From: Halieaceae bacterium
Lineage (GTDB): Bacteria; Pseudomonadota; Gammaproteobacteria; Pseudomonadales; Halieaceae
Length of the DNA stretch: 16,211 nt
Assembly: GCA_011523115.1 (NCBI GenBank)
Contig: WTHO01000270.1
Coordinates: forward strand, 1 to 16,211
Reading direction: 5' to 3'
Positions within the stretch are counted from its first letter, which is position 1; each line of letters opens with the position of its first letter. The translations under genes were made by a program, and so were the position numbers. The notes beneath the pieces were generated by a model. The model searched no databases, was not told the DNA's origin, and worked only from the letters and a program-made list of their open reading frames with translations. Shown piece after piece: positions 5,477 to 16,211 of the stretch.

Positions 5477-6304
5477 TTATTTGATGCCACGCGCCTGCTG
5501 AATCACCTCATAGGCAGCCGTGATCTCTTGCGCCCGCTCAGTAGCAACCCGGAGGAGTTCATCGGGCACCCCCTCGGCGATCAACTTGTCAGGATGGTGC
5601 TCGCTCATAAGCTTTCGATAGCGTCGCTTGACCTCGGCATCGGTAGCCTTTGCTTCGAGGCCAAGCGCTTCATAAGCCGTTTCCAGCTCTGAGGCGCTGC
5701 GACTTGCAGCTCCGTAATCCCCGCCCCCCGAGGAGCGCCTGTAGCCACCGTGCTGAAATTGTGACTGGGCGGTGACCATCGAAATCAGTTGCTCTACTTC
5801 CCGACGTGGGAGTCGAAGCAAGTCTGACAGCCGGAATATTGCCGTGCGCTCGGCGCTTGAAAAGTTACCGTCCGCCAACGCAATGCCGACCAGGAAAATC
5901 ATCAGCGTGTGCTGCGCCTGGCGCCGCGGACCGAGACAGTCGTTGAACTGCGTGACGGTGGGACCGGGGTCAAAGCCCGCGGTAGCGCCTTTTTTGAAGT
6001 GCTCAATAGCACTTTGCCGCTGCGCGGCATTGAGCCTGAGCTGGTTAAAAAGCGCCTCGGTTTGTGCGATTTCTGCCTCAGAAACGCGCCCGTCGGCCTT
6101 AGCGACGAAGCCCAGAAGCGTAAAGGTGGTCTCAAAGAACTGAGCCCGCATGATGGTCACGGCCTCGGGTCCCGACAATTGCAATGCTCGCCATAATCCC
6201 TTGTCGAAAGCGTGGCCAATCACCAGGCCGAACAGGAGTCCGGCGGGCCCAAAGGCGAGAAACCCAATCAGTCCGGCAACCAGTTTTCCTGTTGTGCGTT
6301 TCAT
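5477..6304 (-). CDS. djlA: Membrane-anchored J-domain co-chaperone DjlA
   Basis: DnaK co-chaperone bound to the inner membrane with its J-domain in the cytosol; in E. coli it affects envelope-stress signalling. From ATG 6304 the protein has 275 residues (E. coli 271). Residues 9-30 form one glycine-rich membrane segment (GLIGFLAFGPAGLLFGLVIG), typical of the dimerising DjlA helix. The middle is a TerB-like region with FVAKADGRVSEAEI (66-79) and IALADGNFSSAE (141-152). A Gly/Ser linker at 186-205 precedes the J-domain (about 209-275), whose HPD is at 237-239. An in-frame GTG at 6313 would add three residues. ATG 6304 is preferred because GGTGG sits ahead of it and no ribosome site precedes the GTG. 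It is transcribed towards trkH. Confidence 0.93.
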   Translation of the reverse strand: MKRTTGKLVAGLIGFLAFGPAGLLFGLVIGHAFDKGLWRALQLSGPEAVTIMRAQFFETTFTLLGFVAKADGRVSEAEIAQTEALFNQLRLNAAQRQSAIEHFKKGATAGFDPGPTVTQFNDCLGPRRQAQHTLMIFLVGIALADGNFSSAERTAIFRLSDLLRLPRREVEQLISMVTAQSQFQHGGYRRSSGGGDYGAASRSASELETAYEALGLEAKATDAEVKRRYRKLMSEHHPDKLIAEGVPDELLRVATERAQEITAAYEVIQQARGIK

Positions 6305-6317
6305 CGATACCACCGTA

Positions 6318-11054: not shown

Positions 11055-13620
<2,566 letters not shown>

Positions 13621-14697
13621 CTACTGGTGCAGCGCGACCCGGCCGTGTTCCACGTGGAACAAACTCAAAGGGCCCGCGTCCCAGGCCGCCTCAAGGGCCC
13701 CTCGATCTACGGCGGTCAATACGACCTGCCTATTCACGCCCAGCTCCGAGCAAACACTTGCACAGTGCACCGCATCGAGCTCGGCAGGCAAGTCATCCAC
13801 CAAATAAAGCGGCTGAGTCGGGCCGCTTTCCTCGATTAATCGGCCCTGAACCAGCTTCAGAGCCACCAGCAGCAACTTCATCTGCCCCCGGGATAATATG
13901 TCTGCAGCCAGTACATCGCCTACCATTACTCTCAGATCTGCGCGATGCGGCCCCACCTGGGTAAAACCCTGGGCTGCATCTCGCTGGCCATTTCGCTCCA
14001 GCGCCTCCGCCAAGCTGAGGCTACGGTCCCAGCCGCGCCTGAACTGCACCGATACGTCGGCTAAATCCGCAGACAGCGAGGCCGCCAAAACAGTCAGTCG
14101 GTCGGACAATTTCTCGGCCATCTGAGCCCGGTGCGCGGTTAACAGTTCGCCAGCCTCAGCCAGTTGATGTCGCCATGCGCTGTCAGCTTCTAGTATACCA
14201 CGGCGCAGTCCGCCATTTCGCTGCCTGACGGCATGGGCATAACGCCTCCATAACGTCAAAAACCCCTGTTCCACGTGGAACAATGTGCCGTCGAGCAGCC
14301 GCCTTCGGCCTTCGGGAGCCCCCGTCACTAGGCTCATACTATCGGTGTCGAGGAGCACTATTGGTAGCGCCTGAGCGAGCTCAGACAGAGAAGAGATATT
14401 TTCTCCCCCGATGCGGGCCCGCAGCCCGGCGTCCCGGTCTTTCTCTATACCAACAGACTGCGCTCGTGCGCCCTGGCGGATTCTCCCCACGACGCGGCAG
14501 GTTGCATGGCTGTGCTGAATGATCGATTTCGCATAGCGAGTCCTGAAGGATCGACCCATACCCAGAAGATGAATCGCCTCGAGGAAGCTGGTTTTGCCTG
14601 AACCATTGGCGCCAAAAAGTGCGGTTGCGCCCTCAGACAACTCTACATCGACGCGGGTCAGGTTCCTGACGCCAACGACCGAGACGTGCTCCAGCAT
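13621..14697 (-). CDS. recF: DNA replication and repair protein RecF
   Basis: SMC-like ATPase that helps RecOR load RecA at single-strand gaps. The protein has 358 residues (E. coli 357). Walker A GANGSGKT is at 29-36, the signature LSRGQMK at 268-274 and Walker B LYLVDD at 297-302, followed by LPAELD, typical of RecF. It begins 19 bp after the dnaN stop, so both are on one transcript. No clear Shine-Dalgarno site precedes ATG 14697. The gene contains two perfect parS palindromes, each coding Phe-His-Val-Glu in the same frame (starting Phe140 and Phe347). The second lies at the C-terminus, where the usual fold needs no such sequence, which suggests pressure at the DNA level. Confidence 0.97.
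   Translation of the reverse strand: MLEHVSVVGVRNLTRVDVELSEGATALFGANGSGKTSFLEAIHLLGMGRSFRTRYAKSIIQHSHATCRVVGRIRQGARAQSVGIEKDRDAGLRARIGGENISSLSELAQALPIVLLDTDSMSLVTGAPEGRRRLLDGTLFHVEQGFLTLWRRYAHAVRQRNGGLRRGILEADSAWRHQLAEAGELLTAHRAQMAEKLSDRLTVLAASLSADLADVSVQFRRGWDRSLSLAEALERNGQRDAAQGFTQVGPHRADLRVMVGDVLAADILSRGQMKLLLVALKLVQGRLIEESGPTQPLYLVDDLPAELDAVHCASVCSELGVNRQVVLTAVDRGALEAAWDAGPLSLFHVEHGRVALHQ
13646..13661. other. parS site (ParB-binding centromere), copy 1
   Basis: TGTTCCACGTGGAACA, a perfect 16-bp palindrome, matches the bacterial parS consensus (TGTTnCACGTGnAACA). It lies within the last part of recF. ParB binds such sites and spreads along DNA to form the origin partition complex. Identification is by sequence match to the known consensus; no ParB gene is in the window. 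Confidence 0.9.
14267..14282. other. parS site (ParB-binding centromere), copy 2
   Basis: A second exact copy of TGTTCCACGTGGAACA, 621 bp from the first and also inside recF. Two perfect 16-mers this close are far beyond chance. A pair of nearby parS sites next to the dnaA end of the chromosome fits the known origin-proximal placement in Pseudomonas and related bacteria. Confidence 0.9.
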
Positions 14698-14716: not shown

Positions 14717-15829
14717 TCAAAGCCGCATGGGCATGACAACATACAGCCGCTCGGGTTCCTGCTCGGCAGGGGGCTCCGCATGTTCCAGCAGGGCCGAACT
14801 GGCCTCATCAGATAGTGACAATCGCACCCGCGCTTGGTCTAAGACTGAAAGCACGTCCAGCAGGTAACTGACATTGAAACCGATCTCGAGTTCGGCGCCG
14901 CCATATTCCACTGCAACCACTTCTTCTGCCTGCTCCTGTTCGGGGTTATTTGCCGTGATATCCAGGCTGTCATCAGCCAGCTTCAGACGCACACCACGAT
15001 ATTTTTCGTTGGACAAAATCGCCGTGCGGGTAAATGCTTGCTTTAATTCGGCACGATCGCCGATGACGGACTTGTCGGCATTTTTCGGGATTACGCGCTC
15101 ATAATCGGGGAACTTGCCGTCAACTAGCTTAGAAGTGAAGGTGAATTGCTCGTTCGCGGCCCGCAGGTGGTTACTGCCAATCGCCAACTCCAGCGGGGCA
15201 TCACCATCGAGCAGTCGCGACAGCTCCAGCACTCCCTTTCGAGGGATAATCACACCCGTGTCAGCCGCCTCGACCCGGGCAGGCCCCGTTGCCAGCGCCA
15301 ATCGGTGGCCGTCTGTCGCCACCACGCGCAACCTGCCACCTAAAATCTCCAGATACAGCCCGTTGAGATAGTAGCGAACATCTTGCTGGGCCATCGCGAA
15401 CGCCGTGCCGTCAATCAGCTGCTTGACAAGTGCCTGCTCCAAAGACAGCGCCACCGAACCCTCGCCGGCCTCAACCGCAGGAAAATCAGCAGCCGGCAAT
15501 GTCGATAGCTTGAATCGGCTTCGCCCAGCCTTCACGGTCGCTTTGCCGGAATCCAGAGAAAATTCTATATTGGAACCCTCTGGAAGCGACTTACAGATGT
15601 CCACCAGCTTTCTGGCAGGCACGGTTATCTCGCCATCAACCCCTGCGGCGTCAAGTTCAACACGCCCCACCAATTCGACCTCGAGGTCGGTGCCCGTTAA
15701 TGAGAGGGTTTTGCCCTCGAGCACGACCAAGACATTGGACAAAATAGGCAAAGTTTGACGCCGCTCGACAACGCCGGCCACGAGATTCAGCGGCTTGATC
15801 AGCGCTTCACGGGAAATGGAAAACTTCAT
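14717..15829 (-). CDS. dnaN: DNA polymerase III beta sliding clamp
   Basis: Homodimeric ring that tethers DNA polymerase III and other partners to DNA. The protein has 370 residues (E. coli 366). It begins MKFSISREALIKPLNLVAGV and ends VMPMRL, both characteristic. The three repeated clamp domains are seen, including LPILSNVL in domain 1, DGHRLA near residue 180 and FPDYERVIP at the domain 2/3 boundary. The ATG at 15829 lies 63 bp from the dnaA stop. The ribosome-binding site is weak (AAAGCGAG about 10-17 bases upstream). Downstream, recF follows after 19 bp. Confidence 0.98.
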   Translation of the reverse strand: MKFSISREALIKPLNLVAGVVERRQTLPILSNVLVVLEGKTLSLTGTDLEVELVGRVELDAAGVDGEITVPARKLVDICKSLPEGSNIEFSLDSGKATVKAGRSRFKLSTLPAADFPAVEAGEGSVALSLEQALVKQLIDGTAFAMAQQDVRYYLNGLYLEILGGRLRVVATDGHRLALATGPARVEAADTGVIIPRKGVLELSRLLDGDAPLELAIGSNHLRAANEQFTFTSKLVDGKFPDYERVIPKNADKSVIGDRAELKQAFTRTAILSNEKYRGVRLKLADDSLDITANNPEQEQAEEVVAVEYGGAELEIGFNVSYLLDVLSVLDQARVRLSLSDEASSALLEHAEPPAEQEPERLYVVMPMRL

Positions 15830-15892: not shown

Positions 15893-16211
15893 TCAGGTCG
15901 TCAACGCTCGGAGCAAATTTTGATAGTCCTCGCTGATATCAGAGCTGACGTCCCTCAACTCCCGTATTTTACGGCATGCGTGCAGGACTGTCGTGTGATC
16001 ACGGCCCCCAAAGGCATCGCCAATCTCAGGCAAACTATGTTGGGTCAGCTCCTTTGCCAGCGCCATCGCAACTTGCCGAGGCCTAGCCACAGATCGGTTG
16101 CGTCGTTTAGACATAAGGTCAGCCACTTTGATCTTGTAGTATTCCGCGACTTTACGTTTGATGTTATCCAGAGAGACCTGCTTGTCCTGCAGCGCAAGCA
16201 AGTCCTTCAGG
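15893..16211 (-). CDS. dnaA: Replication initiator DnaA, C-terminal part (5' end outside window)
   Basis: Initiates chromosome replication by binding DnaA boxes at oriC and melting DNA as an AAA+ filament. About 105 residues of the C-terminus are visible, starting [13 protein letters not shown] at the right edge and ending RALTT. They form domain IV, the DnaA-box-binding helix-turn-helix. The signature [20 protein letters not shown] and [19 protein letters not shown] are almost identical to E. coli. The frame continues past the window edge. The ATPase domain III and the N-terminal DnaB/DiaA-binding domains lie outside. It is the first gene of dnaA-dnaN-recF-gyrB on the minus strand. Confidence 0.98.

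Follow-up and report, generated by a model that had tools for sequence, protein, structure and literature searches.

In parABS systems, ParB that has bound parS closes with CTP and then slides outward; the resulting complex is moved by ParA and is the place where SMC is loaded. A layout with parS inside recF is already published for Pseudomonas aeruginosa (PMC3909081, PMC5521831; here and below, PMC-numbered papers are cited from excerpts), and it is a common one in related bacteria. The parS closest to oriC in that species lies ~4 kb away, in recF (PMC3909081), and parS1 and parS2 are both located within this gene (PMC5521831). Its origin-near parS cluster was tested by experiment: a single site out of parS1-4 suffices for segregation, the mutations made at in-gene sites left the protein unchanged, and ParB binding fell 2- to 10-fold at nearly all of the altered sites (PMC4368675).

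In Caulobacter crescentus, whose parABS system shares an origin-near ParB-parS arrangement with the locus described here, recF and gyrB fall in a hot spot for artificially inserted parS, but the native parS cluster lies apart from it (PMC5815017). Escherichia coli carries a homologous recF in a dnaA-dnaN-recF-gyrB cluster, and Enterobacteriaceae are described, in the excerpt of PMC3909081, as lacking par genes.

Here, we describe a 16,211-nucleotide window, the whole stretch of DNA analyzed, from a Halieaceae bacterium in which recF carries two perfect copies of the parS-like palindrome TGTTCCACGTGGAACA. We read these palindromes as the parS sites of a chromosomal parABS centromere carried by recF, with a probability of about 94%. 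A sequence-only reading of the same DNA had proposed that the recF segment is part of the chromosome partition centromere, a proposal now supported by the layout in relatives, by the codon freeze at the two sites and by the presence of ParB in relatives. As in P. aeruginosa, the sites lie in recF and match a known parS, parS2 being the identical 16-mer. P. aeruginosa differs in possessing ten putative sites, among them the high-affinity parS3 and parS4 outside recF and a parS1 with one mismatch (PMC4368675), whereas the recF pair here is perfect at both places and comprises the only sites within two mismatches in a draft genome that is 79% complete.

Two palindromes within recF

The window extends from fmt into the 3' portion of dnaA, with gyrB, recF, dnaN and the cut dnaA as its final genes. 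recF (13621..14697, minus strand, 358 aa) carries both palindromes and matches solved RecF structures, e.g., 2o5v. Its downstream neighbor is gyrB (11055..13490, minus strand) and its origin-side neighbor is dnaN (14717..15829, minus strand), both named from translation and gene order; the 3' end of dnaA follows (15893..16211, minus strand), the gene continuing past the window edge. The gene order of relatives, together with DnaA boxes upstream of dnaA, places oriC beyond dnaA in those genomes. With the dnaA end, dnaN, recF and gyrB all in the window, the sites cluster in the origin-near dnaA region. Elsewhere in the window, a 278-aa minus-strand open reading frame between trkH and glyQ (5477-6313) comprises a tellurite-resistance-like helical part followed by a terminal J-domain-like HPD stretch, and appears DjlA-like by eye.

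The two copies of TGTTCCACGTGGAACA, strandless by nature, occupy 13646..13661, near the 3' end of recF, and 14267..14282, mid-gene, with a spacing of 621 bases (207 codons). Read on the minus strand, the former encodes LFHVEH in the C-terminal tail (RecF residues 346-351 of 358) and the latter LFHVEQ in mid-protein (residues 139-144). Both are exact copies of the 16-bp palindrome TGTTYCACGTGRAACA, and both positions reported from the sequence alone, as the only two occurrences of the 16-mer, were reproduced. No third match to TGTTCCACGTGGAACA occurs in the window at up to three mismatches, and shuffled windows yield a mean of 0.07 matches, with one of 200 shuffles reaching two. CACGTG, a common core of the sites of DNA-binding proteins, is found six times in the window; as the sequence-only reading had observed, the cores outside the pair lack matching arms, which holds for all four of them (1404, 3709, 3925 and 7892).

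The draft genome to which the window belongs (2.08 Mb, 290 contigs, 79% complete) contains no match to TGTTCCACGTGGAACA besides the recF pair at up to two mismatches (reversed control, 0), and the genome scan suggested earlier thus returned no extra copies. Weaker sites may exist elsewhere in this genome too, because P. aeruginosa has some with two or more mismatches (PMC4368675).

Codon choice at the RecF words

Both palindromes sit in the same recF frame, xTG TTC CAC GTG GAA CAn, and could in principle be a by-product of codon bias on a conserved RecF peptide, FHVE, without any ParB function. The peptide is well kept, FHV(E/K) being present twice in 84 of 85 RecF proteins, and given the RecF peptide and the codon usage of the window, the chance of the exact 16-mer is ~0.024 per site. 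Among 20,000 synonymous resamplings of recF, at least one site appeared in 977 and two sites in 11; one site is fairly cheap from the peptide alone, and a chance pair is not expected. A chance origin of the sites is rejected by the shuffles, the resampling and the codon data, and conservation across relatives settles that the recF pair is not due to chance.

Codon conservation was measured on 99 recF frames, from which one with a stop (L042), that of E. coli (L116) and one with N letters (L101) were dropped; removal of 11 repeats from the remaining 96 left 85 distinct recF genes. Mean codon dominance is 0.96 at the eight codons for FHVE, compared with 0.52 at other conserved residues; of the 56 conserved columns, these eight take ranks 1-7 and 10. 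A probability computed from such ranks assumes independent, equally degenerate columns and is given no weight here. Some of these loci had been picked partly by the peptide LFHVEQGF, and the ranking was therefore repeated on 29 recF loci chosen without the motif, giving the same result (ranks 1-7 and 9 among 75 columns). At the two words, Val is encoded by GTG in 85/85 and 84/84 cases, Glu by GAA in 84/84 and 82/83, and His by CAC in 85/85 and 83/85. This choice runs against the preference of the window, where GAG outnumbers GAA (203 vs 124) and GTG accounts for less than half of Val codons (130/334). The FHVE codons are thus frozen beyond other conserved residues, and we therefore conclude that selection acts on the DNA over and above the protein; conservation at the DNA level is seen at both places.

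The flanks of the words vary while the palindrome is mostly kept. Across both words, the residue preceding F is L (68), V (68), M (32) or A (1), and the residue following E/K is Q (90), H (62), P (11), R (5) or L (1), the end of the palindrome being lost where P, R or L follows. E is replaced by K in the RecF word where the second arm reads AAA. Exact TGTTYCACGTGRAACA sites number two in 64 of the 85 recF genes and one in the other 21. Other RecF proteins read differently: E. coli K-12 RecF has FHNE at the first matching place and FTVE in its tail, MFTVEKGKITD, and the solved structures 2o5v and 5z67, from elsewhere, whose alignments extend across residues 3-327 at most, lack FHVE at the first place in the alignments inspected. 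Neither palindrome is present in E. coli K-12 recF, which stands alone in this among the named recF genes read. A peptide-only origin is contradicted by the codon data, and we consider the by-product explanation very improbable.

Slightly less probable still is that the palindromes bind another factor, such as a transcription or nucleoid factor recognizing CACGTG. The core alone, being common among DNA-binding proteins, would suit such a factor, but the position and number of the sites and the ParB partner all fit parS. The identity extends, moreover, over the full 16-mer to P. aeruginosa parS2 and parS3 (PMC4368675), in agreement with the earlier claim of a match to the ParB-binding consensus.

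Several relatives display unusual forms of the sites. One genome (G079, L124) carries TGTTCCACATGGAACA in both recF sites, changing Val to Met twice, and another (G204, L137) carries TGTTCCACGTAGAACA in both, a silent change. These paired identical changes look as if the sites were following one ParB preference or converting each other. When the ParB proteins of these two genomes were compared with sixteen others, G079 read GLSR, and G204 and nearly all others read GKSR or a close form. In a same-genus draft (G032:C3:167356-168316, L042), the recF match is broken in two and contains stops, yet the two 16-mers remain exact; their spacing of 608 bases is not a multiple of three.

Sites in close relatives

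Among 58 genomes, our own included, 52 have a recF match, and the same 52 carry a site. The CC/GG form of the 16-mer is present with at most one mismatch in 48; the ten genomes without it comprise six without a recF match and four (G042, G043, G050 and G053) with the TT/AA form, TGTTTCACGTGAAACA.

Fourteen relatives that are 94-100% complete were searched for TGTTYCACGTGRAACA at up to two mismatches. Thirteen possess exactly two sites with zero or one mismatch, both in the recF match, the exception being G050 with four sites, one of them in recF. Two-mismatch matches total 23 over the 14 genomes, compared with 48 reversed-control matches at up to two mismatches, and are no commoner than the latter. 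The sites are therefore few and not scattered, with two in the draft and two in 13 of the 14 near-complete relatives. Copies spread far from the origin, which the sequence-only reading had named as evidence against a centromere, are found nowhere in the draft at up to two mismatches, and those 13 relatives have only the recF pair at zero or one mismatch.

ParA, ParB and SMC

The draft encodes an SMC of full length that scores above the family cut-off. ParB (TIGR00180) was not found in this 79%-complete assembly, and a search of it with a relative's ParB returned only a stretch with E = 0.09. A 3,037-base contig, C129, has rsmG between the end of mnmG and the start of parA; 99 codons of parA are present, in a frame that is open to the contig end and 86% identical to parA of the relative L048. 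The contig breaks just before the place where parB follows in relatives. The search for parAB proposed earlier was thus successful for the start of parA and yielded no recognizable parB in the draft. An assembly gap best explains the missing parB, and we infer that the gene lies in an unassembled part of the draft; loss of parB was set aside in favor of this reading, C129 ending inside parA.

In L048, genes named from their translations are ordered parB-parA-rsmG-mnmG ... dnaA-dnaN-recF, with parB 11.4 kb from the nearer recF site and the sites 3.1-3.9 kb from the DnaA boxes upstream of dnaA. parAB thereby lies across oriC from the recF sites, as in P. aeruginosa. ParB is found in 51 of the 58 genomes, our own draft being among the seven misses, and in all 21 genomes from other families of the order. 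The least credible alternative is that parABS has been lost in this lineage and the sites persist as relics. It is prompted by a draft without parB and with a partial parA and by six other same-genus drafts also without a ParB match, but contradicted by a parA frame that stays open up to the contig end cutting it and is 86% identical to a relative's, by two sites that are still perfect and by ParB in 30 of 36 other same-genus genomes.

TIGR00180 also matches in the E. coli control genome, and we take this match as another ParB-like protein because Enterobacteriaceae reportedly lack par genes (excerpt of PMC3909081). In one relative (G011:C9:171036-171534, L049), ParB appears as two matches that overlap, of which the second contains two stops; a sequencing error may be responsible, the assembly being built from long reads.

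A candidate two-site centromere

With the palindromes read as parS, ParB dimers would be loaded at the two recF sites, form closed, CTP-dependent clamps and spread across the adjacent origin region. ParA would then move the ParB-parS complexes apart after the origin fires, and SMC would be loaded at the complex. ParB binding, spreading, SMC loading and segregation at these sites are proposed by analogy with the described systems. Each site would serve a dual purpose, encoding FHVE in RecF while its codon choice is held by ParB binding and not by the protein.

Given the published layout, two aspects appear modestly new: that codon use at the two words is frozen, and that the recF pair probably makes up the entire consensus centromere in this genus. 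In the literature searched, which did not extend to Livny et al. 2007 on parS distribution, neither a cross-family codon freeze at two words of RecF nor a centromere made up of the recF pair alone is mentioned, and Livny et al. 2007 may already note recF sites. We give even odds to a broader picture: the complete centromere of these bacteria may consist of two parS words in one gene, ~207 codons apart, in an arrangement old enough to be shared by many gammaproteobacterial families, with ParB rather than RecF dictating two stretches of RecF, and with lost sites persisting as a decayed translation, a fossil, in the FHNE and the tail MFTVEKG of E. coli.

The two RecF words appear to be set by ParB, a case of a segregation site shaping a protein sequence. 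Two sites in one gene also offer a simple natural case for asking the minimum number of parS per chromosome, and the centromere would probably be harmed if recF were recoded in bacteria of this kind. Apart from these points, the window reflects the ordinary chromosome biology of a marine bacterium.

Distribution across Gammaproteobacteria

A sample of 184 genomes, drawn evenly from the class and including our own, was searched for exact TGTTYCACGTGRAACA. The site is present in 120 genomes (reversed control, 1/184) and absent from 64. ParB matches in 175 genomes, the nine without a match including our own draft. With the latter excluded, a site occurs in 117 of 175 ParB-positive genomes, compared with two of eight ParB-negative genomes (Fisher p 0.02), the two being G170 and G171. 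The best match to E. coli RecF in the class sample is only 44% identical, so the sample holds no close kin of E. coli.

Among the sites listed (75, in 44 of the 120 genomes), 53 lie in a recF match or within 60 bases of one (34 of the 44 genomes) and 22 lie outside recF; recF intervals were set for 42 genomes, and sites on contigs without a recF interval were counted as outside. Eighteen of the genomes listed have more than one recF site, the first two listed being 612-633 bases apart in 17 and 669 bases apart in one. The recF of L139 keeps the second word only, and those of L123 and L135 have neither; the recF layout is widespread and not universal. Three class relatives (G146:C7:7132-7815, G226:C7:52630-53385 and G185:C1:223491-225939) have three or four exact sites, located within recF and shortly past it, from which we conclude that the cluster grew or shrank in some lineages.
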